The position numbers and the translations under genes were made by a program. Of a DNA stretch of 63,135 nt, positions 7,763 through 61,362 are shown in pieces. Position 1 is the first letter of the stretch; each line of letters opens with the position of its first letter. The notes below the pieces were generated by a model. That model was not told the origin of the DNA, did not search any database, and worked only from the letters and a program-made list of their open reading frames with translations. Origin of the DNA: Salinivenus sp. (GTDB taxonomy: Bacteria > Bacteroidota > Rhodothermia > Rhodothermales > Salinibacteraceae). The stretch is taken from contig JAHENZ010000266.1 in the NCBI GenBank assembly GCA_018609755.1, positions 1 through 63,135 of the forward strand. Direction: 5' to 3'.

Positions 7763-7827
7763 CGAGTCTTCGTTAGAATGCGGGTGGCACTGCAACCGGG
7801 CGCTCGTTGCAAGTCGCCGAGAATCTC

Positions 7828-41589: not shown

Positions 41590-44500
41590 CTATGTCATCG
41601 CCTCTTCGGGGACGTCGGCCTTCTCGAGTTCGTGGCGCAGGGACTCCACGAGCGTTGAGATGTGTGGCTCATGGACCAACGAGTCGTGGTCGCCGGGGAT
41701 GGTGTAGATCTCGAGAGTCCCCTCCACCATCTCGTTCCATCCCAGATCATCTCCAATACGTCCTTCGAAGTCGCCCTTGTCGGAGGCTCCGAACAAGACG
41801 ATCCGGCCCGGATACGGTTCGACTTCATACTGGCTGGCGGCGTGGTGAAAGGCCCGGACCATGAGAATCTCGCGGAACGCGTGCGGCATCGTCCATCCCA
41901 TGGTTTCGTAAAGGGCAATGCCCCACTCGCGGAATCGATTGCGCTCCACGAGGAGTCGCTTGCTGAGGTACTTCTTCACGTACGTCCACCCGTCCTCTGA
42001 AAGACGATTCAGCCGCATGCGGAGCCGGTCGGTAAACCGAAACGGCTCTTGCGGCGAAAGGTGCGGATAGTACGTGTCCAGGAACGCGAGTAACTGGACG
42101 TCTTCGTCGTTGCGCAGAAGCTGTTGCGCCATCTCGTAGGCAATCACCCCGCCGCCCGAGTACCCGCCCAGCAGATAGGGCCCGCTGGATTGAACAGTGC
42201 GAATCGCGGCGAGATAGTCCGTCGCCATCGCCTCAATAGTCTCGTGCGGGCTGAACTTTCCGTTGACGCCCCGGGCTTGGAGGCCGTACACCGGTTGATC
42301 TGAGCCGAGGCGAACCGCCAGATCGCGGAAGTTCAGGACGTTCCCGCCTGCCCCGTGGACGCAGAAGAAGGGCGTCCGATCGCCACCCGGCTGGATCGGT
42401 ACGAGGGGATTGAACGTCGATTCGCCCTGTGAGGGAGTAGCAGAAGGGGTACTGAGCGCGAGGCTCATTTCTTCTTCTGAAGTTGCAGTCCCATCCCCGC
42501 TATCGGGCGAGAGGGAAATTCCTTTCTCCTCCCGGATCAGATCCGCGTACTCGGCAATCGTGGGGGCCTGCAGCAGGGCCGAGAGGGGGAGGTCCACCCC
42601 CAACTCGTTCTTTACCTTCGAGAAGATCCGAACGGCGATGAGGGAATGGCCGCCGATGTCGAAGAAGTCGTCGTGGATGCCGATGGAGCCGATACCGAGC
42701 ATCGATTCCCAGATCCGGGCGACGGTCCGCTCAATCTCGTCGCGCGGCGCATCGGCAGCGTCGGACGAGGCGTCCTCGGCTTCGCTGTTCGCGTCCTCAG
42801 AGCTTGGCGCCGGGAGGCCGTAGGTGTCGTCAATGTGTCCCTGCAAAGCGTTCACGTCTACGGGGGAAACGACGACCTGCGGGACGCCCGTGGTCGTGAG
42901 CAGTCGGCGGAAGACCTCACGTCCCTCCGCGACAGTCAGGGAATGATCCGCGTCGACGGCCCATTCGCTTGGAGTTCCGGTCGACGACCGTCGGCGCGTC
43001 CGGGGCGAGAGGGTGTCGGTGTTCGACAGTACGTCCACGGGGACTCGCTTCATGGAAAACGCGTCGATGGTGCCGACGAGCCGTCCGTCGTCGTCCCAAA
43101 GGGTTACGTCGAACGACACCAGATCGCGGTCGGCTGGATTGCTGCATCGCATCCGGCTGATCACGGTGGCGGGGAGGGGCCGAACGAACGTAGCGTTTTC
43201 GTAGGTGATCGGCACGTAGAAGTCGCGGTGCTCTGCGTAGTTGTTTAGGACCGGCAGGCCGAAGGCCGTAGCGATGTCGAGCAGGGCCGGGTGGGTGTGC
43301 ACGGTGTCCAGGTCGGTGGCAAACGTGTCGGGGAGCTCAAGCTTTGCCCATGCCGTGGAGCCGTTCAGCACCATCCACTTCAGAACATCCCACCGCGGGC
43401 CGAAGTCCATGGTCTCGTCCTGGTAGTTTTCGGGAAAGCCCGTCTCGGCGTCGAAGCGTGAGCCTTCAGGAATGAGGGTCGACAGGTCGACGGGGTCGGA
43501 TTCGGTCGCGTCCTCTGAAGCAACGTCCACCCGTCCGTGCGCATGGTCAAGCCATCCGTCGGCGGTCTTGCTCGAAATTGTGGCCTGGAGCCCGGCCGCC
43601 GTGCCTTCTTCGAGAAGGACCTCAACGTCGAGGGGGGCGTCCACACGAAGCGGCTCCTCGAACGTCAAGTCGTGGATCCGAACCGAGGCGCTGGGGTCAA
43701 TCTGTCGCAGCGCGGCGGTAAGAAGCTCCACGTAGCCGGTTCCCGGCAGCACGGCGGTGCCGTCGGGCAGGCGGTGCTCGTCCACGAGCCACTGGTCCGG
43801 CGCAAGCGTACCCGTAAAGCGGTGCGTCGCGTTGTCTTGGGTCCAGCGGGTCAGCACCGGATGCTGAATGTCGGTGCCGTCAGTGTCGTCGTCGCCGAGA
43901 GCGGCGGCCATACCTACGTCCTGCCACGCGCTCCAGTCGATCGCGATTGTCGGGAGGCCCTCCAGCGTGAATTCGTGGGCGGCGGCGTTGAGGTACGCGT
44001 TTGCGGCGCAGTAGTCCACCTGGCCGGGGAGGCCCAGCAGGGCACTCACCGACGAAAAGAGCACGACCTGCTCCACCGGCTGTTTTTTGAGCACGTCGCG
44101 GAGGACCTTCGTACCGGTCACCTTCGGGGCGAGGACGCGCTCGACGTCCTCGGTCGACTTCATGGGGATGGGCGCATCGTCGAGAACCCCTGCGGCGTGG
44201 AAGGCGCCCCGAATCGGGCCGATGGTCTTCGCCGTCCGCTTCACGACCGCACGCATCTGCGCTCGGTCGGTAACGTCGGCGGCCTCGACCGTAACCTGTG
44301 CACCAAGCGACTCAATCTGTTGGATCGAGCGAATCTTTTGCGCGGTTGCATCGGCAGGGCTTCGGGTGGACAGAATCTCGTCCCACTCCGTTCGCGGGGG
44401 CAGCCCCGACCGACTCACGAGGACAAAGTGGGCGGGGACCGTCTCCGCCACGTCCTCGACGAGGGAAAGGGCAAGTCCGCCGGTTCCCCCGGTGACGAGG

Positions 44501-47500
44501 TAGACGCCCTCGGAGTCGAGCGACATGGGGGCATTGTCGTTGGACGATACGGAGAGGGACTCGTAGGTCTGCGTATAGCGCCGACCGCGTCGGTAGGCCA
44601 CCGTTCGGTCTTGGGGGGACGAGGTAATTTCTTTCCACACCCCGGAGGCACTCGACTCGTCGACGTCGAGGACGCGGGGCTCTACGTTTGGAAGCTCGCG
44701 CGGGAGCACCCGGGCCGGGCCGAACAGGGTGGCCTTCTCCGAGTGGATGGTCGTATCTCCGGGAAGCGCGTGGAGGTGATCGCCGAGGATCACGAGGTCG
44801 AGCCGCTGCGAGAGCCCGCTTGTGCCGAGCACTTTTGCGAGGGCGAAGAGGTGCTTCCAGCCGGCCCCGACCTTCTCCAGAGACGAGGGCGCGGACGAAC
44901 CGGTCACGTTCCAGGCGTGCACGATGCGATCGAGGTCGCCCGTCGTCGCTCCCAGTTCGTCGAACAGTCGCTCCACGTCAGAGTCCTGATTGGCGCGGAC
45001 GACAAAGTTTCCGTTTCGTCGCTGCTTGAAGCGCCAGCCCTGATCGACGCGAATGACGTTCACGCCGTCCTGAACGGCCCGATCAATGAGGGAAGGGGCC
45101 ACGCTGTCGTCGGCAAACACGAGCCAGGTTTCCCCCTCGACGTCGTTGGTTTCCGATTCTATGATCGACGGGGACCAGGACGGAAGAGAGAAGAAGGAAT
45201 CGACGGACTCGCGCCGCTCCAGCGGGTCGGTTGACGTTCGCGATTCGCCGGGGGTAATCCAGTGAGACTCGCGCGCAAACGGGTAGGACGGAAGCGGAAT
45301 GCGTCGGCGGGTGTCGTCGGGATCGCGAAGCACCGACCAGTCGATCTCTACGCCCGCTTCCCAGACGCGGCCGAGAGCCTGGAGGACGAACTCGTCGTCC
45401 TGGGCCGTCTCTTTCGGGTGCCGAATCGTGGGGCACACCACGAGGGTGTCGGGGCGGTCGTCGTGCACGTCGGCAAAGGTGGACAGCGTGTGGCCGGGCC
45501 CAATTTCGAGGAGGAGCGGATTGGAGAGCTCAAGCAGTGCGCGTACGCCGTCCGAAAAGCGTACGGTGTCGCGCAGGTGGCGTGTCCAGTACGCGGCGCT
45601 GGTGGCTTCGTCATCCGTAATCCAGGTGCCGCTAAGGTTCGAGGCGAAGCGGCGGGTCGGCGGTTGGAGATCCACCCGCTCCACCGCCGTTCGGTACTCG
45701 TCGAGAATCGGATCCACCATGGGGGAGTGGCCGGCCACGTCGATGGGAACGACCGTTCCTTCGACGTCCCGATCCAGGAGCTCAAGCCGAAACGCCTCGA
45801 TCGCGTCGGCGGCACCGGACACGACGCACATGCTGGGGGCGTTGATGGCGGCGATGGAGAGCGCGTCCGGGAGAAGCGGGCGCACGTCGTCCGCCGGCAT
45901 CGGGACGCTCAGCATGCCGCCGGAGGGCAACGTCTCAAACAGGCGGCCGCGGACGCACATGAGCCGAAGCGCCTCTTCGAGAGACATGACCTCCGCGATG
46001 CACGCGGCTGCGTATTCCCCGGCACTGTGGCCAATCATTCCGTCCGGCTCGACTCCCCACGAGAGCCAGAGCCGAGCCATAGCCACTTCGATGGCGAGTA
46101 AGGCGGGAAGTCCGCGGGACGGCCGCTGGAGCTCCGTCCGAGCGGCGTCTTCGGTGTCTGAGGAGGGAAAAAGAAGGGGACGAAGATCGATGTCTTCCTC
46201 AGACTGGACGAATTGAATGGCCTGGTCGATCACCGAACGGAAGACGGGCTCGCGGTCGTACAGGTCGCGTGCCATGCCCGGGTACTGAGCACCGCCACCC
46301 GAGAACAGGAAGCCGATCGAGCGGCGAGGGAGAGCCGCAACGGGCTCTTCCGTCTCAGGGTCGCATCGGTCCACGAGCGACGGTGCATCCGAGGCGACAA
46401 CCGCCCGCCGGTAGTCGTATTCGGGACGACCGTTTTGCAGCGTGTGGCTGGCGTCCGCAAGGTTGATTTCCGGCTCCCCCTCCACGTGGCCCCCGAGGGC
46501 CGAGACCGACCGATTGAGCGCGTCGGGCGTCTTGGCCGAAAGGGGGAAGACCTGCGGGCGGGACGGTGTAGAGGTCGGAGCCATCGATGGGGCTTCTTCC
46601 ACGATCACGTGGGCGTTCGTGCCGCCCACACCGAGGGAGTTGACCCCCGCGCGACGAGGGGCGCCGTTTACGGACCAGTCTCGGAGCGAGTCATTGACCA
46701 CGAATGGGCTCTTCTCCAGTCCCAGCTTGGGGTTGGGGGTCTGGAAGTGGAGGCTCGGGGGAAGCTGGCGGTGCTTGAGGGCCTCGACGACTTTAATGAG
46801 GCTCGCGACGCCCGCGGCCGTGTCCAGGTGACCGATGTTGGTCTTTACTGAGCCAATCGCGCACTGACCGCCTCCCACGGTGGGTCCGTAGGCCTGAGAC
46901 AGGGCGGAGAGCTCGATGGGGTCGCCTACGGGCGTGCCGGTGCCGTGACACTCGACGTACGAGATGGTTTTGGGGTCCACGTCAGCAAGGCCCAGGGCCT
47001 CGGCGGCCGCGGCGGCCTGTCCGTCCACACTCGGCGTCAGGTACCCGGCCTTCTGGGCACCGTCGTTGTTGACGGCAGTGGCGCGAAGGACGGCGTGAAT
47101 CGTGTTGCCGTCGCGCACGGCATCTTCGTATCGCTTGAGCACGACCACCCCAGCTCCGCTTCCGAACACAGTGCCTTCGGCCTCGGCATCGAACGCACGG
47201 CAGTGGCCGTCCGGGGCGTGGATGCCCCCCTCTTGAAACAGGTATCCCCACCGTTCTTTCAGGTCAATGGTTGAGCCCCCCGCGAGAGCCACGTCGCATT
47301 CCCCGCTCAAAAGGCTTTGTGAGGCGACGTGCACGGCGACGAGAGACGTGGAGCAGGCCGTTTGCACGTTGACGCTCGGTCCTTTGAGGTCGAACGCGTA
47401 CGACGCGCGGGTCGACAGGAAATCCTTGTCGTTGCCGGCGTGCCGGACGTGGAAGTAGCCCAGCCGGTCAATCAGGTCGGGGTTGGTGGCCAGGTGGTCC

Positions 47501-47916
47501 TGGAAGTACGTGTTCATGCCGCACCCCGCGAACACGCCGATTGCCGCCGTGCTGCGGGTGGGGTCAATGCCGGCCCGATCGAGGGACGACCCCACGCACT
47601 CCAGAAAAATCCGGTGCTGGGGATCCATGATCGCGGCGTCCTGCGGGCTCATCCCGAAGAAGTTCGCGTCGAAGGCGTCGAGGTCGTCGAGGGCGCCGTG
47701 GACGGGAACGAAATTTGGATTCTCACGGCGGGAGCGCGGGACGCCGGCTGCTTCGAGTTCGTCGTCGGTGTATCGGCGGAGTGACTCGACACCGTCGCGC
47801 AGATTGGTCCAGTAGGCGTCCACCGTTGAAGCCCCCGGGAGGCGGGTGGCCATTCCGACGATGGCGATCTCGGACCCGACGTAGTCACTCGGGGGAGGAG
47901 ATGAAGGAGAGGTCAT
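41590..47916 (-). CDS. Type I polyketide synthase, KS-AT-KR-DH-ACP-TE
   Basis: 2108 residues. Ketosynthase 16-440: Cys188 in TACSTSL, His324 in ECHGTGTPVGDP, His363 in NIGHLD. Acyltransferase 535-830: Ser631 in GHSAGEY; the specificity motif reads VAGH (727-730), neither HAFH (malonyl) nor YASH (methylmalonyl). Ketoreductase 1135-1335: VTGGTGGLA, LDD at 1245-1247 (B-type marker), Tyr1302 and Asn1306. Dehydratase 1355-1625: His1381 in EHRLPDGTAVLPG (one residue longer than the usual HxxxGxxxxP) and Asp1547 in HPALLD. Carrier 1725-1795: Ser1758 in GGHSL. Thioesterase 1848-2100: Ser1920 in GYSGGG, Asp1947, His2077 in GDHDS. The dehydratase after the ketoreductase is a non-canonical order. One extension cycle and release are predicted. 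Both NRPS and PPTase genes lie upstream on the same strand. Confidence 0.93.
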   Translation of the reverse strand: MTSPSSPPPSDYVGSEIAIVGMATRLPGASTVDAYWTNLRDGVESLRRYTDDELEAAGVPRSRRENPNFVPVHGALDDLDAFDANFFGMSPQDAAIMDPQHRIFLECVGSSLDRAGIDPTRSTAAIGVFAGCGMNTYFQDHLATNPDLIDRLGYFHVRHAGNDKDFLSTRASYAFDLKGPSVNVQTACSTSLVAVHVASQSLLSGECDVALAGGSTIDLKERWGYLFQEGGIHAPDGHCRAFDAEAEGTVFGSGAGVVVLKRYEDAVRDGNTIHAVLRATAVNNDGAQKAGYLTPSVDGQAAAAAEALGLADVDPKTISYVECHGTGTPVGDPIELSALSQAYGPTVGGGQCAIGSVKTNIGHLDTAAGVASLIKVVEALKHRQLPPSLHFQTPNPKLGLEKSPFVVNDSLRDWSVNGAPRRAGVNSLGVGGTNAHVIVEEAPSMAPTSTPSRPQVFPLSAKTPDALNRSVSALGGHVEGEPEINLADASHTLQNGRPEYDYRRAVVASDAPSLVDRCDPETEEPVAALPRRSIGFLFSGGGAQYPGMARDLYDREPVFRSVIDQAIQFVQSEEDIDLRPLLFPSSDTEDAARTELQRPSRGLPALLAIEVAMARLWLSWGVEPDGMIGHSAGEYAAACIAEVMSLEEALRLMCVRGRLFETLPSGGMLSVPMPADDVRPLLPDALSIAAINAPSMCVVSGAADAIEAFRLELLDRDVEGTVVPIDVAGHSPMVDPILDEYRTAVERVDLQPPTRRFASNLSGTWITDDEATSAAYWTRHLRDTVRFSDGVRALLELSNPLLLEIGPGHTLSTFADVHDDRPDTLVVCPTIRHPKETAQDDEFVLQALGRVWEAGVEIDWSVLRDPDDTRRRIPLPSYPFARESHWITPGESRTSTDPLERRESVDSFFSLPSWSPSIIESETNDVEGETWLVFADDSVAPSLIDRAVQDGVNVIRVDQGWRFKQRRNGNFVVRANQDSDVERLFDELGATTGDLDRIVHAWNVTGSSAPSSLEKVGAGWKHLFALAKVLGTSGLSQRLDLVILGDHLHALPGDTTIHSEKATLFGPARVLPRELPNVEPRVLDVDESSASGVWKEITSSPQDRTVAYRRGRRYTQTYESLSVSSNDNAPMSLDSEGVYLVTGGTGGLALSLVEDVAETVPAHFVLVSRSGLPPRTEWDEILSTRSPADATAQKIRSIQQIESLGAQVTVEAADVTDRAQMRAVVKRTAKTIGPIRGAFHAAGVLDDAPIPMKSTEDVERVLAPKVTGTKVLRDVLKKQPVEQVVLFSSVSALLGLPGQVDYCAANAYLNAAAHEFTLEGLPTIAIDWSAWQDVGMAAALGDDDTDGTDIQHPVLTRWTQDNATHRFTGTLAPDQWLVDEHRLPDGTAVLPGTGYVELLTAALRQIDPSASVRIHDLTFEEPLRVDAPLDVEVLLEEGTAAGLQATISSKTADGWLDHAHGRVDVASEDATESDPVDLSTLIPEGSRFDAETGFPENYQDETMDFGPRWDVLKWMVLNGSTAWAKLELPDTFATDLDTVHTHPALLDIATAFGLPVLNNYAEHRDFYVPITYENATFVRPLPATVISRMRCSNPADRDLVSFDVTLWDDDGRLVGTIDAFSMKRVPVDVLSNTDTLSPRTRRRSSTGTPSEWAVDADHSLTVAEGREVFRRLLTTTGVPQVVVSPVDVNALQGHIDDTYGLPAPSSEDANSEAEDASSDAADAPRDEIERTVARIWESMLGIGSIGIHDDFFDIGGHSLIAVRIFSKVKNELGVDLPLSALLQAPTIAEYADLIREEKGISLSPDSGDGTATSEEEMSLALSTPSATPSQGESTFNPLVPIQPGGDRTPFFCVHGAGGNVLNFRDLAVRLGSDQPVYGLQARGVNGKFSPHETIEAMATDYLAAIRTVQSSGPYLLGGYSGGGVIAYEMAQQLLRNDEDVQLLAFLDTYYPHLSPQEPFRFTDRLRMRLNRLSEDGWTYVKKYLSKRLLVERNRFREWGIALYETMGWTMPHAFREILMVRAFHHAASQYEVEPYPGRIVLFGASDKGDFEGRIGDDLGWNEMVEGTLEIYTIPGDHDSLVHEPHISTLVESLRHELEKADVPEEAMT

Positions 47917-48123
47917 GGGACTTCTTCTAACTAAGGGAAGGGGGGACTCGTCTTGAGCGAGAGTCGAGTGTAAAAATACACCTGCTTCTGGCGTGATGAG
48001 TAATCCCTTTCCCGGACCAGATGGGGTCTGCGGGTCCTCCCCCTAGGGAGATTTCGTCACTGTGGATTGCTCCTTTGGCGCATATCAGGCGGGAGCAAAT
48101 GCCTTTGCGAGGTCGTCTCCCTG

Positions 48124-49038
48124 TTACGGGGCGAACACGGAACGCCAAAAAGCGGGCCGCAGGCTGTCGAGCCCCGAGCGGACAACGACCTGTCCGGCCT
48201 GTAGTAGCCGCAACCCGAGCTTGCCGTATGCGCCCGCTCGCGCATTTCGCTTTACTGAGATGAGGTAGTTCCGGACGAGCTGGGCACGCCAGTACACCGA
48301 CGTGGCGGATGCGAGCGCCCGACGGAGCGCGTCCGGCTGGTCGAAAATCGTTTCGTGGGCTTCGAGCAAGTACTCGACGTCCATTGAACGGGGAGAGGCG
48401 CTCTCCTCCATGCCCTCGCTGTACCGGAAGACCAACTCCGGGACCCGTACGAGGTCGGACCGCAAGGACATGCGCATCATGAGGTCCATGTCCTCGGAGG
48501 TGGGATACCTCGGGTCAAATCCCCCCGCCTCAAAAAAGAGGTCCGACCGGACGAGTGAGGCCTGAAGGGGAAACCATTCGCCACTGAGGAGGGCAGCAAG
48601 CACGTTGCCTTCAAGCGTCTGGGGAAGCCGATCGATAAAGTCTCCGGATCGGGTCACCCGTTCGACACAGCCGTGAATCCATCGAGCGTCCGGGTGGTGT
48701 TCGAGGGTCCGTCGGAAGGCCTGGAAGGCCCCCGGAAGCATCAGGTCGTCGTCATCGAAAAAGTGCAGGTATCTGCCCGTTGCAAGGACGGCCCCCACGT
48801 TGCGAACCGTTCCGCACCCCATGCGGCTTTTTCCCGTACTTGTGGTTCGGATGCGATCATCGTCTGGGAGCAAGCCGTCCGGCAAGGGGGCGTCTGAATC
48901 GTTGAGGACGATCACGTCGTGATCGATCCCCTCGAGATCCTGAGTCAGAATGCTCTCAAGAGACTTTCGCAGATGCTCTCGTCCGACCGTCGGAACGATG
49001 GAGGAAATGGAGACCGAGACGGCGTTGGAAGAGGACAT
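48124..49038 (-). CDS. Glycosyltransferase family 2
   Basis: 304 residues. VSISSIVPTVGREHLRKSLE (8-27) begins the GT-A domain; VIVLNDSDAPLPDG and LHFFDDDDLMLPGAF (about 92-106) are the nucleotide and metal sites; GGFDPRYPTSEDMDLMMRM carries the usual ED acceptor motif. It lies between the NRPS and PKS genes on the same strand, so a glycosylated assembly-line product is possible. Its 5' end overlaps the small ORF at 48956-49147 in another frame. The leader lacks the pyrimidine tract common elsewhere. Confidence 0.85.
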   Translation of the reverse strand: MSSSNAVSVSISSIVPTVGREHLRKSLESILTQDLEGIDHDVIVLNDSDAPLPDGLLPDDDRIRTTSTGKSRMGCGTVRNVGAVLATGRYLHFFDDDDLMLPGAFQAFRRTLEHHPDARWIHGCVERVTRSGDFIDRLPQTLEGNVLAALLSGEWFPLQASLVRSDLFFEAGGFDPRYPTSEDMDLMMRMSLRSDLVRVPELVFRYSEGMEESASPRSMDVEYLLEAHETIFDQPDALRRALASATSVYWRAQLVRNYLISVKRNARAGAYGKLGLRLLQAGQVVVRSGLDSLRPAFWRSVFAP

Positions 49039-49147
49039 ACCGATCTGCGCGAAAGTATTGGAAGGTGTTCCCCAGTACGTCGAGGAGATCTAGATCTCCA
49101 GGACCGTACGTCATGTGAGCAGAGGCGGTCTTCCTGAACTTCTTCAC
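48956..49147 (-). CDS. Possible small peptide gene (KKF...GPGDL family), member 1
   Basis: 63 residues from GTG 49147, 69 bp after the NRPS stop. Its first 19 residues (VKKFRKTASAHMTYGPGDL) match the ORF at 58599-58670 (MKKFTKTVSAQMEAGPGDL); DNA identity is about 48 of 56 bases. The rest (LLDVLGNTFQYFRADRY) is not recognised, and the last 27 codons overlap the GT2 gene in a different frame. Function unknown: it could be a leader peptide, a precursor peptide or a decayed gene. No database match can be claimed. Confidence 0.35.
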   Translation of the reverse strand: MKKFRKTASAHMTYGPGDLDLLDVLGNTFQYFRADRYVLFQRRLGLHFLHRSDGRTRASAKVS

Positions 49148-49215
49148 GGATCGGTAGCATCGTTCGGAGAGGCAACGGGACGCCGGAGCGTCCCGTCTCA
49201 CGGGGTAGGAGAGAG

Positions 49216-52200
49216 TCACCGTCGGGTAAATGCCTGTCGGCGCCGTTCCGCGCGCGAGGTTCCTCGGGTTGCGCCCTCAGCGGTGTCGGCGTCGGTGTCG
49301 AGGTGGTCGGCCAGGGACCGGATCGTCGGGAACTGGAAGAGGTCGACGATCGGGATTTCGCGATTCATCTCGTCACTCAGCTGGCGCACCACCTGTACGG
49401 CGAGCAGCGAGTGCCCGCCCAGGTCGAAGAAGTTTTCATTCACACCGATGTGATCCAGGTCCAGCACCCGCTTCCAGACCGTGCTGACCAGTTCTTCGAT
49501 CTCGTCGGTTGGGGCGTCGAACGAGTCGGTCTGGACGGCGCGAGGGGGCCTCGGGTCGGGGAGGGCGTTCCGGTCCACCTTGCCGTTCGGGGTGAGCGGG
49601 AAGGTCTCGACCGTGGTGAAGTGGGAGGGCACCATGACGTTCGGAAGAACACGTGCGACTCCCTCTCGAATGGCCTCCGGATCCACGGAATGGTCCTCCT
49701 CGGGCTGGAGGTAGGCTACGAGGCGCTGATCATCGTCATCGTTTGTGTACACGTTCGCGACCGCGGCCCGGACGCCGTCCTGGCGTTCCAGGGCAGCTTC
49801 AATCTCCCCTAACTCAATTCGGTGGCCCCGAATCTTGACCTGGAAGTCGACGCGGCCGAGGAAGTCGAGCGTGCCATCGTCCCGGTAGCGCACGAGGTCG
49901 CCGGTCCGGTACATCTGACCGTCGTGGAACGGGTTGTCGACGAAGCGCTCGGCCGTGAGCGTCTCGCGGTGCAGGTAGCCGTTCGTGACGCCGTCGCCCC
50001 CAATCCAGAGCTCGCCCGGCGCGCCGATGGGCACCAACTCCCGGGCCTCGTCGAGCACGTAAAACGTCGTGTTCGCGATCGGGGTGCCGATGGACACGGG
50101 GCCGTCCACGTTCTCGACCGGCCACGTAGAGGACCAGATGGTGGTTTCCGTGGGGCCGTACATGTTGCACACCGATCCGCCGACCACCTCCGTCAGTTCA
50201 CGTGCCAGGGCGGGAGGCAGTGTTTCGCCCCCCACCATCATGTGAAACACGCGGTCGAGGGCGTCGCGCGAATCTGCGTCTCCCACGAGCATTCGGGCCT
50301 GCGAAGGTGTGCACTGCAGGTGGGTCACGTCGTGGCGCCGAATCTGGGCCGGAAGCGAGTCGTCCGTTACAGGGGGGGCTGCGGCAGAACGACCGTTCGT
50401 GCGGTGGGAGTCGTCCACCAGGTCGTCGGCGCGGTCCTTCACCGTCGCGAGTGCAGGCAGGTGGTCCAGCACCGTCTGCGCGTCGATTCCAAAGTCGAGG
50501 AGGCAGGCAATTTCGTTCACCCCGACGGCGGCAACTTCGGCGACCCGTTCGAGGCACTGCTCCGGGGTTCCGAAGAGCCCACTCGTGGCGTAGTACCGCT
50601 CGAATGCGTGCTCCAGCACGGCGTCCATTTCGTCGTCGCTCAGTTCGTCCAGCGAGAAGTCTCCGGCCTCGTTCGTCGTTTTCTGCTTGAAGGTCGGGAA
50701 GGACCAGGCCGCTTTTTTGATGAGCCCGATCGAGCTTCGAAGATAGCTCTTCATGGGCTCGCGGACGATGGACCGCACCGCCTCTTCGCTGTCGCCGACG
50801 AAGGAGTGAAGCATGAGGGTGACGGTGCCCTCGCCCGGGTGTCCCGCCTCGTTCCGGGCGCGCCGGTAGATCGCGATTTTCTCCTCGAGCTCGTCGACCG
50901 TCTGGCCGAGGAGGTGGGTCAGCATGTTGTATCCGCCCGCGCCGGCCTGCTCGAACGTTTCGGGGTTCCCGGCTGCCGTCACCCAGACCGGAAGCTCGGA
51001 CTGAACGGCCCGCGGGAGCGTGCGGACCGTCACTGGGCCGTCGGGACCGTCAAACGTCCGGTCCTCGCCGCGCCAGAGGGCTTTTACCTGCTCGATCTGC
51101 TCGAACATGAGTTCCTTCCGGTCGGCATAGTTGTCGGGCTGAATGACGAAGTCGTCCGGTTGCCAGCCGGCAGCGAATGAAATGCCCACTCGGCCGTTCG
51201 AGAGGTTGTCTACGACCGCCCAGTCTTCCGCAATCCGGACCGGGTGGTGCAGGGGCGACACGCACGAACCCGCACGGATGCCGATCGACTCGGTGCGCGC
51301 TGCAATGGCGGCACTGATCACCGAGGGGTTCGGGTAGAGGCCGCCGAAGTCGTGAAAGTGGCGTTCGGGGGTCCAGATGGCTTCAAATCCGTGGGTGTCG
51401 CCGAATTCGGCGCCTTCGAGGAGAAGGCGATACTTGTCGGAGGCCCCGCCGGAATCGTCGAGCTTCTCGTCACTCGAGAAGTAGAACAGGCTAAAGTCCA
51501 CCGGCTGATCGAGAGCGGGACGAGGGGTAGACGTTCCATTTTGGGCATGCGAGGAGGGATCGGCCGCCGGGTGTTCGGCGCGGGTCCGGTCGCTCGTGTG
51601 CAGCACCACGTGGAATCCGCGCGTCAGCGTCCAGAACAGCTCAAGCACCGAAATGTCGAACGAGATGCTCGTCACGGCGAGCCAGACGTCGTCCCGGTCG
51701 TCCGACCGTGGGATCCGGTCGTCCATGCCGGCGAAGAAGTTTGCGAGGTTCCGGTGCGTGACGACAACGCCCTTCGGCTTGCCGGTCGACCCGGACGTGT
51801 AGATGACGTATGCGGTGTGGTCGGGGCTTGCCTCACGGTTCGGGGGGGCGGTCGACCGTGCGGACAGGGCATCGGCCTCTTCGTCCAGGAGGAGCAGGGG
51901 GCTCTCCGACGCGTCCAGCAGATGGGTGAACGTGCTGTGCGAAATCACACAGGCGAGTTCCGCGTCCGCCACCATGAAGGCGATCCGATCGGCGGGGTAG
52001 GACGGATCGAGGGGCACGTAAGCGGCGCCGGCCTTCCAGATGCCCAGGAGCGACACGATCATGTTGAGGGAGCGCTCTACGCAGACGCCGACGAGGTCGC
52101 CGGGCTCGACGCCCATGTCGATCAGGTGCCGGGCCATCTGGTTTGCCCGCTCGTCGAGGCGGCGGTACGACAGGGTGTCGTTCCGATACGTCGCGGCGGT

Positions 52201-53946
52201 CGCGTCCGGCGTTCGTTCGGCCTGAGCCTCAAATTGATGGTGGATTGGGGTCGGGTCGTACGAGCGCTCGGTGTCGTTCCAGTCCTCAAGGAGCGTGTGG
52301 ATGGTCTCTTCGGACAGTATCGGGAGGTGCTGGAGGGACGGCTCAGTCTCGGCCAGCGCGCTCGTGAGGAAACGCTCAAACTGCGCCTGGAGCTGCTTGA
52401 AGTGGTCGGAAGAGAGTCGGGTGGCGTCATACGCCCAGTGCACCGTTCCGGACGAGGACGGCTGCATCGACAAGGCCACGCCGTGCGGGAGAGACGGAGA
52501 CGGGTCGGCGGCCTCGGATAGGACGACCTCGACATTGAACCGAGAACGCTCTGCGTTTTCCGACAGCGCCGGGGTGCGAACAAAGATGTCGTGGGCGTAC
52601 GTGCCTCGTTCCTTCGTCGTTGCGAGACGCTCTTGGATGTGGGCGAGGGCCGCGGCCGGGGAGGCGTCCAGATCCACGTCGAGGGTACACGGGACAGTTG
52701 AGGCGTAGAAGGTGTCGAGTCCTTGTACTGCCTCGTCGAGCGACGCGTGGCGCAGGCCGACGGTCACCGTCCGAGACTGGGTGAGCCGGGCCAGGAATGC
52801 GATCCAGTATGCGCCCAGCGTGTCCGGGTCCAAATCGGTTGCCCCCTCAATGGATTGAGCGTCGACCGACGACGTGCGAACGTCAGCGGGGCCGTCTGCC
52901 GGGGTCACGTACGGAAGGTCAAGGGGGCGGGCCCGCTGGAGCTGCGTACGCCAGAAGGACTCGTCTTGGGCGACGGCGGATTGAACATTCCGAAGCCGGG
53001 CGGCCGTTTCGTCGTCGAGGCGGGGAAGACGTTCTCCCACGCGAAGGCTGTGCTCCGATGCAACCGATTCGAGGTCGACGGCGGTTCCGGTAAGGCTCGA
53101 AAGGGAGGGGATGGACACGTCTTCGGTGCTCGTCGACACCATGAGCCGATCGGGGCCGACCTCAAGAAGGGTCCCCGGCGCTTTTTCGGAAGCGGTCGCC
53201 AGCACGTCGAGGCTGTTCACGCGGTATACCGCGTCGCCAAGGTGGATTTTCGGCGTTCCGAGCGGGTTCAAGGCAGGGCCGAACGTGAGCCCGCGGACCC
53301 GCGCGCTCAACGACTGCGCCGACATGTTCCAGTCCAGAACCCCCGCGCGGGCCGGCCGCTTGTCCCGGGCGTAGTACGTCTGGGACGAGAGGTCTTGTGC
53401 CTGCGGCGAGAGGGTCTCCTGCTCCAGACCGCCGATCAATTCCTCGAAGGACTCGATGCCGGCCTCGTAGCACTTGGTATTCAGCGTGAACACCGTATCG
53501 TCGGACGCGATGGGGAATCGGCGCTGGACGAGAATGTCCCCTTCGTCGACCTCTGCCGTCATCTCGTGCCACGTCACGCCGTGTTCGTCGTGTTGCTCGA
53601 TGATCGACCAGGCCGGAACGTACATGCCCGCCCGTTCGGGGAGGGGGCCGTCGTGGAAGTTGATAGCGCCACGGCGCGGAGCGTCGAGCACCGGGGCGGG
53701 CACGATGCGGAGGTTCGCGATGCTGAAGAAATAGTCGAACTCGCGGTCGCGGAGACGGGGCACGTAGTCGTCCGTCGGGGACCATTGCGTGAGCTCCCGC
53801 TCGCGGGTCCACTTTTGGATTTGATCGTCGTTTGCGATCACACCAACAATTTCGTGACCGCGCTCAAGGAGGTAGTTGCCACACTGGATGAGCAGAGATT
53901 GCTCACCCATGAGAACACAGCGGAAAGAGGGGGGGGAAGCCATCAT
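49216..53946 (-). CDS. Non-ribosomal peptide synthetase: formyltransferase, half-C, A with inserted luciferase-like monooxygenase, PCP
   Basis: 1576 residues. Formyltransferase 1-310: INFHDGPLPERAG with Asn96 and His98, and VDEGD with Asp134. Residues 322-550 resemble only the second half of a condensation domain (ESFWRTQLQ onward); no HHxxxDG is present. Adenylation motifs: A2 LGIWKAGAAYVPLDP 634-648, A3 YTSGSTGKPKG 716-726, A4 FDIS 763-766, A5 NMYGPTE 1261-1267, A7 YRTGDL 1346-1351, A8 1364-1386, A10 NGKVDRNAL with Lys1456. A luciferase-like monooxygenase of the MupA/Atu3671 type (about 815-1175; YFSSDEK, GFEAIWTPERHF, SPLHHPVRIAEDWAVVDNLS) sits between A4 and A5. Carrier Ser1513 in GGHSLL. 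By eye the pocket reads D-I-L-Q-M-G-M-I-W, close to the glycine code. No release domain; the product should pass to the PKS. Confidence 0.92.
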   Translation of the reverse strand: MMASPPSFRCVLMGEQSLLIQCGNYLLERGHEIVGVIANDDQIQKWTRERELTQWSPTDDYVPRLRDREFDYFFSIANLRIVPAPVLDAPRRGAINFHDGPLPERAGMYVPAWSIIEQHDEHGVTWHEMTAEVDEGDILVQRRFPIASDDTVFTLNTKCYEAGIESFEELIGGLEQETLSPQAQDLSSQTYYARDKRPARAGVLDWNMSAQSLSARVRGLTFGPALNPLGTPKIHLGDAVYRVNSLDVLATASEKAPGTLLEVGPDRLMVSTSTEDVSIPSLSSLTGTAVDLESVASEHSLRVGERLPRLDDETAARLRNVQSAVAQDESFWRTQLQRARPLDLPYVTPADGPADVRTSSVDAQSIEGATDLDPDTLGAYWIAFLARLTQSRTVTVGLRHASLDEAVQGLDTFYASTVPCTLDVDLDASPAAALAHIQERLATTKERGTYAHDIFVRTPALSENAERSRFNVEVVLSEAADPSPSLPHGVALSMQPSSSGTVHWAYDATRLSSDHFKQLQAQFERFLTSALAETEPSLQHLPILSEETIHTLLEDWNDTERSYDPTPIHHQFEAQAERTPDATAATYRNDTLSYRRLDERANQMARHLIDMGVEPGDLVGVCVERSLNMIVSLLGIWKAGAAYVPLDPSYPADRIAFMVADAELACVISHSTFTHLLDASESPLLLLDEEADALSARSTAPPNREASPDHTAYVIYTSGSTGKPKGVVVTHRNLANFFAGMDDRIPRSDDRDDVWLAVTSISFDISVLELFWTLTRGFHVVLHTSDRTRAEHPAADPSSHAQNGTSTPRPALDQPVDFSLFYFSSDEKLDDSGGASDKYRLLLEGAEFGDTHGFEAIWTPERHFHDFGGLYPNPSVISAAIAARTESIGIRAGSCVSPLHHPVRIAEDWAVVDNLSNGRVGISFAAGWQPDDFVIQPDNYADRKELMFEQIEQVKALWRGEDRTFDGPDGPVTVRTLPRAVQSELPVWVTAAGNPETFEQAGAGGYNMLTHLLGQTVDELEEKIAIYRRARNEAGHPGEGTVTLMLHSFVGDSEEAVRSIVREPMKSYLRSSIGLIKKAAWSFPTFKQKTTNEAGDFSLDELSDDEMDAVLEHAFERYYATSGLFGTPEQCLERVAEVAAVGVNEIACLLDFGIDAQTVLDHLPALATVKDRADDLVDDSHRTNGRSAAAPPVTDDSLPAQIRRHDVTHLQCTPSQARMLVGDADSRDALDRVFHMMVGGETLPPALARELTEVVGGSVCNMYGPTETTIWSSTWPVENVDGPVSIGTPIANTTFYVLDEARELVPIGAPGELWIGGDGVTNGYLHRETLTAERFVDNPFHDGQMYRTGDLVRYRDDGTLDFLGRVDFQVKIRGHRIELGEIEAALERQDGVRAAVANVYTNDDDDQRLVAYLQPEEDHSVDPEAIREGVARVLPNVMVPSHFTTVETFPLTPNGKVDRNALPDPRPPRAVQTDSFDAPTDEIEELVSTVWKRVLDLDHIGVNENFFDLGGHSLLAVQVVRQLSDEMNREIPIVDLFQFPTIRSLADHLDTDADTAEGATRGTSRAERRRQAFTRR

Positions 53947-54091
53947 TGGTACAGAGGAGATGCGTAAACGGGGAAGGGGGAAAATGAAAGGTCGCGTGCT
54001 GGGGACGGGAATGCTCTATCCATTGCTCCTACAGAAGGGGGACTTTTGGTGCAGTTCGAACATACACTTTCGGAGGGGAGGGTACACTCCT

Positions 54092-54904
54092 TTAGCGAGT
54101 GTTAGACGAGGAGGGGGGATCCAGGGTGACTGTGGCGTTTGGGACGCGACAAGCGACCGCGGCCGAATAGCCCGGTGCAAGGGGAAGGGCATGGAGGGTC
54201 CAGGTGTCGGGGGACTCCCCTTCGATCCGTCGGACTGTGGCCGCACGGTCGGGACGGAACTCGACGTCGAATCGGGAGAGCCCGAACGAAACTCCTGCTC
54301 CATCGGCTTTGATGACGGCCTCTTTCCGGGTCCAGATGTCGAAGAAGGAGGAACGATGCATTTCGGAGGGGAGGGACAACAGCGTCCGCTGCTCCCAGGG
54401 CGAAAAGACCGACGGCATTAGCTCGGCCACGTCGATCTCATCCTCGTGCTGTTCCACGTCAATTCCGAGGTCGAGCATACCTCCCGCGGCCACGAGGATC
54501 CAGTTGCCACTGTGAGACAGATTGATTCCGAATGCTCCATCCTGGGGCTGGGTCTCGATTCGGGGTTTGCCCATCGCCTCCTGACGAATGGAAAGCGATT
54601 CTGGAGGACGGCCAAGATAGTGGGAGGCGAGCACGCGCAGAGCGCCACGACCCAGAATGAATCGGGTTCGGTCGGGAGTCGATCGGAACCGGTGGGCACG
54701 AGTGCGTTCTTCGTCAGAGAGAAGGCCCCAAAACGAGGGAAGCACGTCGAGCCACTCGGACACCTGAAGGCGCCACACGTGCACGTCCCCCGGTTTCAGG
54801 GGAAACGAGTGCGCTTTATTTGTCCCCTCCGCAGTCATCGTCGTGAGGGCAGTGGGACCACCACGATCGGAAGGGGACGGGAAGGGAAAGGAAACCGTCG
54901 ACAT
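54092..54904 (-). CDS. 4'-phosphopantetheinyl transferase, Sfp type
   Basis: 270 residues. Adds the phosphopantetheine arm from CoA to carrier-protein serines. Motifs: INLSHSGNWILVA near 127-139, GIDVE at 147-151 (metal-binding Asp and Glu) and FFDIWTRKEAVIKADG from 187. Length is typical of the Sfp class. The start ATG 54904 shares one base with the upstream SGNH gene's stop codon (TAATG), which supports this start and translational coupling; an internal ATG at codon 23 is an alternative. Its targets are most likely Ser1513 of the NRPS and Ser1758 of the PKS. Confidence 0.92.
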   Translation of the reverse strand: MSTVSFPFPSPSDRGGPTALTTMTAEGTNKAHSFPLKPGDVHVWRLQVSEWLDVLPSFWGLLSDEERTRAHRFRSTPDRTRFILGRGALRVLASHYLGRPPESLSIRQEAMGKPRIETQPQDGAFGINLSHSGNWILVAAGGMLDLGIDVEQHEDEIDVAELMPSVFSPWEQRTLLSLPSEMHRSSFFDIWTRKEAVIKADGAGVSFGLSRFDVEFRPDRAATVRRIEGESPDTWTLHALPLAPGYSAAVACRVPNATVTLDPPSSSNTR

Positions 54905-55677
54905 TACTGCGTTCGCGAGGCCGCGACTGTATTCTGAGTGGGTGTGAGCAAGGGGCGGAGCTGGTCCGCCACGACCTGGTAGCCCGCGCCGTTCAGGTGA
55001 ACGTGGTCAAAGGTGTAGTCGAAATTGAGGGGGGCCCCGTTCGGGCCTTCCAGCGCGGGGGCGACGTCGACGACGGTGGCGTCGTGCTTCTGGGCAAGGG
55101 GGGAGAGTTCTTCGTTTACAGTGTTCAACACCGTGTTGACGGCCCGGCTGTTTGGGAGTCCTGAGCCGAAGCGAGGAATGGTGAGTACGATCAGTGCCGT
55201 GGAGGGACTGTTGGTTCGCAGGGTGCCGAGAAGGTTGTCGTAGTTCGTCAGAATCTCTTCGGCAGATTTCCCCAGCCGGGCGTCGTTTGCGCCGGTGAGA
55301 AGAACGATTGCTTTCGGCGCCCCGCGCGTCAGTTGGTCGGTCCGATGTAACAGGTCGGCGGTGGTTTCTCCTCCAATGCCGCGGTTCAGGACGGGCACTG
55401 GCAGGAACTCACCCCACCGTCCCCGCTCAACGTGGCTGTCCCCGACGAACAAAACGGAAGAGGAGTCGACGGGCAGTTGGTCGAACTGGCTGACGAGGGC
55501 TCGGTAGTAGGTCGACTCGTGGAAGGGGCTGTCCGGTGGAGAGTACGGGGACGATACGAAGTGCTCGGTGTACTTCGAGTGGAGATAGTCGAAGCCGCCC
55601 TTTTTCCACACAAAGCCGCAGAGGCCCATGACGATGAGAAGATTCAGGCCGAGGGAAAAGAGGAGGGCTGTTTTCAT
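54904..55677 (-). CDS. SGNH/GDSL-family hydrolase, membrane-anchored
   Basis: 257 residues. An N-terminal hydrophobic segment (about 4-24) anchors or exports it. All four SGNH blocks are visible: Ser81 in VGDSH, Gly102-103 in GIGGE, Asn131 in TGAND, and Asp224/His227 in DHVHLNG. This group includes acyl-esterases and polysaccharide O-acetyl-transfer or -removal enzymes. Its overlap with the PPTase gene suggests a role with the assembly-line product, for example moving or removing an acyl group in the periplasm (inference). Confidence 0.87.
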   Translation of the reverse strand: MKTALLFSLGLNLLIVMGLCGFVWKKGGFDYLHSKYTEHFVSSPYSPPDSPFHESTYYRALVSQFDQLPVDSSSVLFVGDSHVERGRWGEFLPVPVLNRGIGGETTADLLHRTDQLTRGAPKAIVLLTGANDARLGKSAEEILTNYDNLLGTLRTNSPSTALIVLTIPRFGSGLPNSRAVNTVLNTVNEELSPLAQKHDATVVDVAPALEGPNGAPLNFDYTFDHVHLNGAGYQVVADQLRPLLTPTQNTVAASRTQ

Positions 55678-55973
55678 GAGACAGGGAACAGGTAAAACGG
55701 AACGGAAGCACTCTGATAATAGGGGCAGGCCTCCGGAGAAAGGAAAGCCATTCACCAATCGGGGATGGAACGTTTGGCGCGTGGCGCTCCGTCACCCCCA
55801 GGAAGAGCGGGACCGGGCGCCTGCCGTAGGTGTCGTTTTGATTCCTCGTGGTCACCCCGAAGTCGCTTCTCCTTCGCCTGCGGGCAAGCCATACCCGTAT
55901 GGGCGAGAATACCGGCTGCCCTCAACCAGTCTGCAGTCGGCATGGGATACTCCTCTCCCCCCAGCACGTGAAA

Positions 55974-56543
55974 TCAAAACATCTCTTGAAAGGGAAGAGA
56001 CAGGGAGGCGGAGATGTCCGAGAGTCGAGGCGAAGATCCGTCTCCCGATTCACTTGTGGTGCGTATTCCGCGGTACTCGCTCTGGAGGTGGAGCAAAGAA
56101 GAGGGAGTGTCGGCCACGGTCGTCCAGAGCACGTGTCCGACGACGATCGACTTGTCGCCGACGTGGATCATCCGTTCGGGTTCGCAGCACAGGATGAGGG
56201 CCGTATCATCGAGAAGTGGAGGGCCGTCGGGGGAGACCGAGTGCGAGATCCCGGCGAATTGTTCTTCTTGCGTTAGACCTGAGCGAGCAAACCGTCGGGA
56301 GAGGTCGGACTGAGAGGCAGAGAGCACGTGAACGGCAAATTTGGGCCCGGACTCCAGAAGGGGGTGGATTCGACTTTGCCGCCCAATGTTGAAGGAGATG
56401 AGGGGAGGGTTGAGACTCAGGCTCGTGAACGAGCCGATGGTAACGCCTCGGTACTTCTCTTCCGTGCCTGCAGTGACGACAGTGACGGCAGAAGGAACGT
56501 GGCGCATGGTCTCGCGGAGCGTGTCGGCACTGAGCAGAGGCAT
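55974..56543 (-). CDS. Flavin reductase family protein (FMN-dependent)
   Basis: 189 residues. VTVVTAGTEEKYRGVTIGSFTSLSLNPPLIS (residues about 20-50) and KFAVHVLSASQSDLSRRFA match the flavin-reductase-like (split-barrel FMN-binding) domain; GDKSIVVGHVLW is the late conserved segment. These proteins reduce FMN with NAD(P)H and hand it to two-component monooxygenases. It lies upstream of the NRPS, PPTase and SGNH genes on the same strand, so it is the natural partner of the luciferase-like domain in the NRPS. The last 25 residues are Ser-rich. Leader before ATG: CCCCCCTCCGTCCC. Confidence 0.88.
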   Translation of the reverse strand: MPLLSADTLRETMRHVPSAVTVVTAGTEEKYRGVTIGSFTSLSLNPPLISFNIGRQSRIHPLLESGPKFAVHVLSASQSDLSRRFARSGLTQEEQFAGISHSVSPDGPPLLDDTALILCCEPERMIHVGDKSIVVGHVLWTTVADTPSSLLHLQSEYRGIRTTSESGDGSSPRLSDISASLSLPFQEMF

Positions 56544-57151: not shown

Positions 57152-58144
57152 TCAGTGCAAAGAAGAGGGCGGGGCGACCGACGCAGCGTAGCGGCGGAAC
57201 AACGATCGAGGATAGCGTCGGAGGGCACCGGCGAAGAAGTGGAGGGCCTCCTGAAGATCGCCTTCCCTGAAGAGCCGGGAGGCCGTCTTAAATCCCGATA
57301 TCGATCCTGCACGGTACTTCCAAAAGTGAAGGGCGTCGGTCAGAGCCCGGCGCTGGGCCGGGGTGAGATCTATCGCGTCGGGGGAGCTCCACTTCTGACG
57401 GAATTTGTGTTCCTGTTGCTCGTCCTTCGACGTGTCGGCGGTACTCTGTTGACCGTGCTGTCGGTAGAAGACGAGACGTTCGGGCAGGTAATGAACCTCG
57501 CCTCGCAAGGCCAGGTGGACGAACAGGTCGTTGTCCTCCCACGGTTGCCCGAAGTCTTCGTCGAACCCCGGAGTAGCCTCAAAAATGGACCGGTGAATGA
57601 GGCCGGAGGACGGGATGAATCCGTGATACCCGGACAGGATGGAGGTCAGCGGCGTCTGGGGTTCCGTATCGGGCAGCAATCGGACGCCGAACGGGGACGG
57701 GGCCAGTCGCAGTGCGGATCGGTTCGATTCTCCGTGTCGGGCCGTGCTCTCCAGAGGATGCCCGTTCGAGTCGATCTTGGTGTAAGTGCAGAAGACGACG
57801 CCGACGGTTGGGCGAGCCGCGAGGTAGGTCGTCAGGCGGCTCAACATGTCGGAGGCAAGAAGGTCATCCGAATCGAGGAAGAGGAGGTAGTCACTCTCAG
57901 GTCGGGCGGCACGGGCGCCTCGATTCCGAGCGGCCGCAACGCCCTGGTTTTCCTGCTGAATGAAGCGGAGGGTCGGGTGCTTCATCGCACGCTTGGCGAC
58001 GATCTCCGCCGAGCGGTCCGTGCTGCCGTCGTCCACGACGACGTGCTCGACGTGGGGATGGGTCTGCCGCAGCACACTATCGATGGTCTCCTCGATGAAT
58101 CGTTCTCCATTATAGAGAGGGGTGACGACCGATACTTTCTCCAT
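57152..58144 (-). CDS. Glycosyltransferase family 2
   Basis: 330 residues. VSVVTPLYNGERFIEETIDS (4-23), VVVDDGSTDRSAEI and LLFLDSDDLLASDML (about 88-102) are the GT-A nucleotide and metal motifs; QPWEDNDLFVHLALRG is the ED acceptor motif. It is the first gene of the minus-strand cluster. It resembles the interrupted GT2 gene at 22150-23184 in layout (GEKYLA/GERFIE, DDGSTD). Upstream lies a miniature element at 58238-58411, 94 bp away, that may carry or disturb the promoter. Confidence 0.87.
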   Translation of the reverse strand: MEKVSVVTPLYNGERFIEETIDSVLRQTHPHVEHVVVDDGSTDRSAEIVAKRAMKHPTLRFIQQENQGVAAARNRGARAARPESDYLLFLDSDDLLASDMLSRLTTYLAARPTVGVVFCTYTKIDSNGHPLESTARHGESNRSALRLAPSPFGVRLLPDTEPQTPLTSILSGYHGFIPSSGLIHRSIFEATPGFDEDFGQPWEDNDLFVHLALRGEVHYLPERLVFYRQHGQQSTADTSKDEQQEHKFRQKWSSPDAIDLTPAQRRALTDALHFWKYRAGSISGFKTASRLFREGDLQEALHFFAGALRRYPRSLFRRYAASVAPPSSLH

Positions 58145-58671: not shown

Positions 58672-60400
58672 TAACCGCAGGACGCTGGTGCTCGCTTCGT
58701 GAGTTTCTTCTTTATTTCAGGAGTGGGTGTGCATTTTTGGCTGGTAAGTTGAAAGTGCTCGTTTGAATCTGTGCTTCGAAGGCAAGTTCTGACCTTGAGT
58801 TGATCGGTTTGTAGGTTTGCCCCCGGCTGGGACAGAGGACGTATTTCTTTTGACTGTGGCTCTTGACCATGAGGTCTAGATCGTCCCCTCCGGCCGGGAG
58901 GTTTGAGCTCGGTGGGGTAGCTTGGGGCTCGACCCCGTTTTTCCCGCCAGCTAGAGCGATGCCTTTGATCGGTCAGGGGCAGACTCAGCCGTCTTGCTAA
59001 ACCTGTTGAATCAGACCCCCGAGACCAATGAACGTGTACGTAGGCGGCGACGTCTCGAAGGGATACGCCGATTTTTGTTTGATGGACGGAGACGGCGAAA
59101 TCCTGCTTGAGATTCAGCTCGACGATACTCGTCAGGGGCACAGCCGGATGGGCGAGCTCATTCGGAAGTGCCATCGAAAAGTCGACTCGGAGGGGGAACT
59201 GGAAGTTGCTCTCGAAGCTACTGGAGGGATGGAACGCAACTGGCTGCACCTGTTCCGAGAACTGGATGAGAGCGGGGAAGCCGACTTGGAAGTCTATCGG
59301 TTCAATCCACTGGTTATCCGGCGGTTTGCCGAACAGAACCTCCACCGAAATAAGACCGATGAGATCAGCGCGCGGGTCTTGGCCGACTACCTCCGCCTGG
59401 GCCTGGCCGAAACGAAGGCGGCCTACACCGACGAGGGCCCCGATGACGGGCTCAAGACTCTGGCGCGCAAGACACAGCGAATGACAGAGCGCTCCGTCGA
59501 CCTCCAAAACGAGCTCAAGGCCCTGCTTCAGCGGACCCACCCTGAGCTTGTTCAATACGTCCGAAGCCACGTGAGCAAATGGATTTTGAGGCTGATAAAG
59601 CAATATCCGACGCCTGAGCAGGTGGCAGAGGCCGGCCCAGAGGCGCTCAGCGAGATTCCATACGTCACAGAGGAGAAAGCGACTCGGATTGTCGAGGCCG
59701 CTCGGACCTCCGTGGCGAGCCAAACGGACGAGGACACGGGCCTGACCCTCTCGCTCGTGGCCGAAGACCTTCTCCGGCTCACCGGGCGGATCGATCAGCT
59801 CAAAGAGCGGCTCTGGAACAAGGTCCGAGACCGACGCGCTCCCCACCTTATCGCCTCGATTGAGGGAATTGGAAAGTGGAGCGCAGCGGGAGGAAAGCGG
59901 CGACGTTGCCCGAGAGAAAACGATCAGCAAGCAGGGCAACGCCCACATCCGATCGGTGCTCTACGGCTGTGTGACCGCCGCCATCCGGAACGGAAGCAAT
60001 CCGCCCGTGCGGGACCTCTACGACCGGCTCACCGGGCGCGGCAAGCATCAGAAGGTTGCCGAGGTTGCCTGCATGCGGAAGCTTCTGGCGATCGTGTACG
60101 GGTGCTGGAGCAACGATGAGCGGTTCGATCCAACCTACGAGAAGCGCCTGAAGGCCCGTCAGACAGAGAAGAAATCCGCTGGCGAGGCCTCCGAGGCGAA
60201 AGATGCGAGCCAGAGCCGCGACATGTCGGCTCCGGTCTCCCAGAAGGAAGCAAAGAAAAGGAGGAAGGCCACCTCGCCAGAGAAGAGCGTGAGCCCTTCA
60301 GCGCGTGGTCAAGGGGCCTTCCTCGAAGAACATCATAACGGTGAGTCTGCTTCGGAGCAAGCTTGACAATCAACTGGGTATCTGGATCCAAAAATGCACC
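58672..60400 (+). mobile_element. IS110-family insertion sequence, decayed (approximate ends)
   Basis: About 1.7 kb with a transposase pseudogene at 59028-60366. Ends are not exact: IS110 elements lack terminal inverted repeats. The left limit is placed where similarity between the two small KKF peptide ORFs stops (58654-58672). The roughly 350 bp between there and the transposase start has no plus-strand gene. In IS110 elements such a non-coding end encodes the bridge RNA; I can only propose this region as a candidate. Confidence 0.6.
59028..60366 (+). pseudogene. IS110-family transposase, inactivated by internal deletion and frameshift
   Basis: The N-terminal RuvC-like DEDD domain begins MNVYVGGDVSKGYADF (Asp8), has ALEATGG (Glu63) and NKTDEISARVLADY (Asp111; the fourth acidic position reads Ser114 by my alignment). 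A coiled region follows to IASIEGIGK at about residue 280. There the frame that continues from 59028 turns to Arg/Pro-rich nonsense ending at 60119, while the frame from 59860 gives SGDVAREKTISKQGNAHIRS, the C-terminal Tnp domain, with the catalytic-Ser region RSVLYGCV. Between them about 40 residues of the usual GIG-to-SG segment are missing, so a deletion of roughly 120 bp with frameshift is inferred. The C-terminal tail is Lys/Ser-rich. Confidence 0.85.
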
Positions 60401-61259: not shown

Positions 61260-61362
61260 GACCAAGCGAATTGAATTGCGGAGTCAATGGTCACACGTAG
61301 GGCCGTCCGGTCCGGACGATCCTACGGTCAGAAAGGGGGCACAGGCACGATGATCCCCAGCA

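Follow-up and report, generated by a model that had tools for sequence, protein, structure and literature searches.

Hybrid NRPS-PKS lines are usually taken to produce free natural products. What, then, would such a line serve in the midst of polysaccharide genes? The question is raised by a 63,135-nucleotide contig of Salinivenus sp. (JAHENZ010000266.1), the whole of which was analysed and is called the window here. Comparison of its genes with their relatives suggests that an enzyme line of the antibiotic type decorates a sugar coat or serves it in some other way. In the reading preferred here, to which a probability of slightly more than one half is assigned from sequence comparisons, the NRPS and the PKS would form a conserved assembly line making an oxidised, glycine-derived acyl group for the surrounding exopolysaccharide.

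Six open reading frames, all on the minus strand, form one co-oriented set at positions 41590-56543, namely the genes of a PKS, a GT2 glycosyltransferase, an NRPS, a PPTase, an SGNH hydrolase and a flavin reductase (Pfam/NCBIfam). The gene set, domains, motifs, strand and coordinates of the initial annotation all held. The features are the following:

10938-41283, minus strand: glycan locus (GT4s, GT2s, sulfotransferases, Wzy_C-like protein, epimerases, methyltransferases, ABC exporter, DegT)
41590-47916, minus strand: type I PKS, 2108 aa (Pfam; motifs intact; same architecture at 66 other loci)
41659-42372, minus strand: PKS TE domain (Pfam)
42535-42726, minus strand: PKS ACP domain (Pfam)
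43027-43863, minus strand: PKS DH domain (Pfam)
43918-44508, minus strand: PKS KR domain (Pfam)
45277-46311, minus strand: PKS AT domain (Pfam)
46597-47871, minus strand: PKS KS domain (Pfam)
48124-49038, minus strand: GT2 glycosyltransferase, 304 aa, between PKS and NRPS (Pfam; no hit to the cassette-GT2 HMM)
49216-53946, minus strand: NRPS, 1576 aa (formyltransferase, half C, glycine-type A with inserted monooxygenase, PCP)
50440-51495, minus strand: luciferase-like monooxygenase insert of the NRPS, TIGR04020 (NCBIfam; 357 bits to PuwE 6ket)
52267-53031, minus strand: C-terminal half of a C domain of the NRPS, without HHxxxDG (alignment to 6p1j from chain residue 255)
53032-53946, minus strand: formyltransferase domain of the NRPS, N- and C-terminal parts (PF00551, PF02911; conserved N-H-D)
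54092-54904, minus strand: PPTase, phosphopantetheinyl transferase (PF01648)
54904-55758, minus strand: SGNH/GDSL hydrolase or acyltransferase with an N-terminal membrane segment (PF13472)
55974-56543, minus strand: flavin reductase (PF01613)
57152-58144, minus strand: second GT2, co-oriented, upstream of the flavin reductase (40 bits to the cassette-GT2 HMM, a generic similarity)

The set had been said to run directly into the glycan genes. The PKS and the DegT gene are indeed on the same strand, but about 300 bp lie between them, so the phrase holds for the orientation and not for an overlap. A promoter scan of the window gave a count at the level of shuffled sequence. The terminator scan gave 19 against 13.1 expected; these figures are not used as evidence.

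The order of the NRPS domains is formyltransferase, C-terminal half of a C domain, A domain split by a monooxygenase, and PCP (Pfam/NCBIfam). The formyltransferase has the N-H-D triad (motifs NFHDGPLP and DEGDIL) and is fused to A-PCP as in a LgrA-type formylating module, and motifs A3, A4, A5 and A10 and the PCP serine are intact as well. The half C first proposed from the window stands, as HHxxxDG is present in 0/79 NRPS homologues and, in alignments with solved C domains, the segment corresponds to their second half. The monooxygenase occupies residues 818-1169, between A4 (763) and A5 (1260), and scores 492 bits against the MupA/Atu3671 model TIGR04020, for which the curated cut-off is 244. 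Exactly one protein per genome exceeded this cut-off in 19 of the 19 genomes tested. Its closest solved relative, PuwE (6ket, 357 bits), is predicted to install an alpha-hydroxyl (PMC4219810).

The A-domain code in the window, DILQMGMIWK, is glycine-like and recurs in 44/79 homologues, with DILQLGMIWK in a further 17/79. The latter is the code of all four monooxygenase-bearing glycine A domains surveyed in PMC12283262, and 9/10 of its positions equal those of the window. In the myxothiazol and melithiazole systems, a monooxygenase between a4 and a5 hydroxylates the alpha carbon of glycine (PMC10204066), and the carbinolamide then breaks into an amide and a glyoxylyl thioester (PMC10204066; PMC11342130). 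Considering the code, the insertion site and the likeness to PuwE, we expect a starter in the form of N-formyl-alpha-hydroxyglycyl-PCP, or else glyoxylyl-PCP together with formamide. This predicted chemistry agrees with the initial annotation, which had put forward a glycine starter that is formylated and oxidised and then handed to one PKS module.

The closest known enzymes each share a part of this architecture. MtaG and MelG have a glycine A domain, a monooxygenase between A4 and A5 and a nearly identical code, but theirs is the last module, where a full C domain is present and the chain is cleaved to an amide, whereas the module described here is an N-formylating starter with a half C that is followed by a PKS. 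LgrA, the closest PDB match overall, initiates in the same way with formyltransferase-A-PCP; it lacks the monooxygenase insert and uses valine instead of glycine, and the NRPS of the window has a half C between formyltransferase and A. PuwE has the same type of monooxygenase, located between PKS and NRPS modules and not inside an A domain. The Agrobacterium Atu3671-type protein carries the same NCBIfam family name and adjoins NRPS/PKS genes. It is a stand-alone monooxygenase of about 45% identity in a different NRPS/PKS locus, and a siderophore reading based on its name was dismissed on these grounds.

As for the PKS, the single module with a thioesterase described earlier was confirmed and refined, as the Pfam scan also places a DH domain after the KR. 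The motifs are intact in every domain (KS C-H-H, AT GHSAGE, KR S-Y, DH H and D, ACP serine, TE GYSGG and H). The AT motif reads VAGHS in the window and IAAHS in most relatives and gave no assignment of the extender unit. Such a protein could in principle work iteratively; from the formyl-glycine starter it would then build a longer chain, possibly a polyene, to be used as a lipid anchor or as part of a glycolipid. The single module with its KR-DH order, the partial matches to PfaA (a PUFA-synthase model) and the presence of a TE would suit such a role, for which Sinorhizobium meliloti RkpA, a PKS-like protein in capsule synthesis, is a precedent. Nevertheless, no enoylreductase was found in the PKS with Pfam, and the KS-AT part is closest to structures of hybrid or modular PKSs, which makes iteration unlikely.

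The cassette in the window is not unique but one divergent member of a widespread, uncharacterised cassette. Relatives of the NRPS were retrieved as 148 stretches in genome contigs, 80 loci being kept, and the NRPS is found in more than 80 loci. The complete pair occurs in Alphaproteobacteria, Myxococcota, Planctomycetota and the window's own order; its hosts are Rhodobacterales, Hyphomicrobiales, a sphingomonad, a myxobacterium, Rhodopirellula and members of the own order. With the core pair present in dozens of genomes, the earlier impression of a composition singular to this locus had to be abandoned. A PKS of identical domain order adjoins the NRPS in most loci, the two being neighbours in 65 of them. 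The NRPS and PKS distance matrices correlate with r = 0.963 over 66 rows (0/2000 permutations), to which the shared ancestry of the host species also contributes. This matched divergence indicates that the pair acts as a unit, and sequence comparison thus places NRPS and PKS in one assembly line that is inherited together, as the initial annotation had it.

Could the two proteins instead be independent enzymes that merely happen to be neighbours? Seven genomes lack the PKS at the NRPS locus. In three of them (L004, L012 and L078), a full-length PKS homologue lies elsewhere; the short contig L022 has one in two pieces, L063 has a partial KS-AT match, and for L002 and L005 no PKS homologue was found, the two NRPS genomes without a matching PKS being G468 and G470. 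Set against the 65 loci with both as neighbours and the correlation of 0.963, even with its contribution from common species ancestry, these cases leave independence very improbable.

Two further loci show other arrangements. On a plasmid of Aliiroseovarius sp. M344 (L130:15781-29520), the cassette's formylating A-monooxygenase NRPS is followed by a different 9.2-kb NRPS/PKS hybrid; this region lacks the usual PKS and adjoins denitrification genes, not glycan genes. In the own order (L093:9238-15846, genome G085), a single 2202-aa protein combines FT-C'-A-PCP-KS-AT-carrier without the monooxygenase insert and is possibly a fused relative of the NRPS-PKS pair.

A counterpart of the cassette has been recorded in Rhodobacteraceae. 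A Roseibaca study (PMC10584327) describes a hybrid NRPS-like/T1PKS cluster in 18/37 species, with at most low MIBiG similarity, and Phaeobacter inhibens Inhi_1972/1974 (PMC4062626) is probably another instance of this cluster. In Roseibaca domitiana (BMJDCPAI_00765/00767), its NRPS measures about 4.5 kb and its PKS about 6.3 kb, with roughly 1 kb between the two, in agreement with the cassette (PMC10584327). The sister locus of Roseibaca ekhonensis (L053) has the same domain orders as the pair in the window, FT-C'-A(LLM)-PCP and KS-AT-KR-DH-ACP-TE. Unlike the Rhodobacteraceae cluster, the window has a non-orthologous GT2 and additional flavin reductase and SGNH genes. No characterised cluster with this composition was found in the open-access literature, which misses most subscription journals; the at most low MIBiG similarity of the counterpart (PMC10584327) likewise agrees with the original statement that none was known. 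Neither the available parts of PMC10584327 and PMC4062626 nor the open-access literature, with the same gap in subscription journals, yielded a link between the cassette and a polysaccharide. What the present analysis adds is the repeated placement among polysaccharide genes and the probable starter chemistry, that of a glycine A-monooxygenase module.

Among the accessory genes, a PPTase family is encoded 3' of the NRPS in 63 loci. A cassette-GT2 family accompanies the alphaproteobacterial and myxobacterial cassettes; its members score above 400 bits against their own HMM and other GT2s at most 42. The GT2 interleaved in the window (48124-49038) gives no match to this HMM and is therefore not an orthologue, and it was struck from the conserved core of which it had seemed a defining part. 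The flavin reductase, an enzyme type also present near one other cassette PKS (L124), is the probable source of FMNH2 for the inserted monooxygenase. Also adjacent to the cassette, at L040:2981-4441 and 39 further loci, is a protein with multiple membrane spans and no family match, conserved in alphaproteobacteria and the myxobacterium L008, which is probably a Wzy-type polymerase.

The SGNH protein of the window has no close homologues in the other loci, and non-orthologous SGNH proteins lie beside the cassette elsewhere. A secreted 315-aa family of Rhodobacterales (L040:17441-18388 and 34 further loci; no Pfam/NCBIfam match) has an AlphaFold model (pLDDT 93.6) that resembles SGNH/GDSL enzymes and, among its lower-scoring matches, an LPS acetyltransferase domain; Rhizobium (L007), Aliihoeflea (L012) and the myxobacterium have members of this family too. 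An 845-aa protein (L040:18385-20922 and 22 further loci; no family match) consists of an SGNH-like half and a GH-A-type glycosidase half. Both families are located downstream of the cassette in Rhodobacterales. The repeated occurrence of secreted SGNH enzymes near the cassette is consistent with an ester-type modification of the glycan.

The glycan genes of the window comprise two sulfotransferases, GT4s, an epimerase, a Wzy_C-like protein (below the gathering cut-off), DegT, an FkbM methyltransferase and, by sequence, an ABC exporter. The locus thus has a polymerase-like protein, an exporter and several glycosyltransferases beside the cassette, as in a Wzx/Wzy-type locus. The recurrence of this context was examined in the flanks of 15 cassette loci (93 proteins, leaving out PKS, NRPS, PPTase and cassette GT2). 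The flanks contain 15 GT2, eight WecG, eight GT4, six Wzx, three priming transferases, three Wzz, two export proteins and two Wzy_C matches. In 93 control genes from arbitrary stretches of the same genomes, such families are absent from the 25 commonest families, a list outside which up to two members per family may be hidden. As these loci are mostly alphaproteobacterial with shared synteny, they do not represent 15 independent events. Nonetheless, the pair has a glycan context in most of its lineages, with separate placements in Rhodobacterales, Hyphomicrobiales, Myxococcota, the own-order relative L089 and the window. The myxobacterial cassette neighbours Wzx, GT2 and GNAT genes, and that of L089 a priming transferase, a PIG-L deacetylase and a GT2. 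Where NRPS and PKS are separated (L004/L124, L012/L123), each lies among glycan genes. The cassette is in glycan context also on annotated plasmids of Ruegeria, Aminobacter, Paracoccus and Shinella. Comparative genomics has thus strengthened the link to a surface glycan suspected from the window.

The main competing explanation is a free diffusible small molecule, e.g., a signal, chelator or antibiotic, whose genes would share loci with glycan genes since both are variable and transferable or used at the surface. This is possible, with a likelihood clearly below that of a glycan-directed product. Some copies have no glycan neighbours: the surroundings of the pair in Rhodopirellula (L047) and in the own-order L090 showed none, and the NRPS-only loci L002, L005 and L063, considered without a domain scan, have no obvious glycan context. 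Copies occur on plasmids, and an IS110 element lies near the cassette of the window. The usual product of a TE is a free acid. The cluster has also been classed before as a secondary-metabolite BGC (PMC10584327). However, the same glycan functions adjoin the pair in several lineages, secreted SGNH and SGNH-GH proteins are its partners, and the annotated cassettes inspected hold no obvious dedicated resistance or iron-uptake gene.

An acyl group made for the exopolysaccharide could arise as follows. The A domain would activate glycine and load it onto the PCP, where the formyltransferase would N-formylate it, and the inserted FMN monooxygenase, supplied by the flavin reductase, would hydroxylate the alpha carbon. 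The KS would take the N-formyl-alpha-hydroxyglycyl thioester, or the glyoxylyl thioester after loss of formamide, and the PKS would add one extender unit. After reduction by the KR and possibly dehydration by the DH, the TE would release a short oxidised acyl group, which the SGNH enzyme or a glycosyltransferase may help to put on, or take off, the surrounding exopolysaccharide glycan. We infer each reaction, and the single extension by the PKS, from the domains. The glycan as acceptor is the best explanation of the genomic neighbourhood, although such a neighbourhood is no proof of attachment; no acyl-to-sugar transferase was identified. A broader version, in which a phylum-spanning NRPS-PKS line builds a glycan building block or substituent that secreted SGNH enzymes attach or remove, is held more tentatively, at somewhat short of even odds; its product would possibly be a reactive 4-oxo or alpha-hydroxyformamido C4 acid. 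If the proposal is true, assembly-line chemistry feeds surface glycans through a compact line maintained in several phyla, and an orphan cluster that is common in marine Rhodobacteraceae, a group with many easily cultured and mutated members, gains a testable function.

How the cassette came to the window is suggested by a comparison within the genus. Positions 450-8302 and 60788-63135 are colinear with genome G009 of the same genus at 76-89% DNA identity, and the glycan genes between these flanks have 36-54% protein identity to G009 or are unmatched. The cassette is absent from G009. This synteny comparison, proposed as a check at the outset, points to exchangeable content of a glycan locus, and the cassette accordingly belongs to its variable core, like serotype-type genes. 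Assembly contamination was rejected as its source given the colinear flanks and a UvrD-like gene 94% identical to that of G009. No further copy was found in the own genus or in a 395-genome sample of the phylum, so the window copy was probably acquired. Its nearest relatives are about 46% (NRPS) and 42% (PKS) identical, and trees give it no firm place. Cassette copies are carried on plasmids in some relatives. On the right, an IS110-family transposase-like gene (59028-60119) separates the glycan locus from the conserved flank. The variable locus has at its left edge a gene (7828-10386) for an 852-aa protein without Pfam/NCBIfam match, which is 37% identical to its counterpart in G009.
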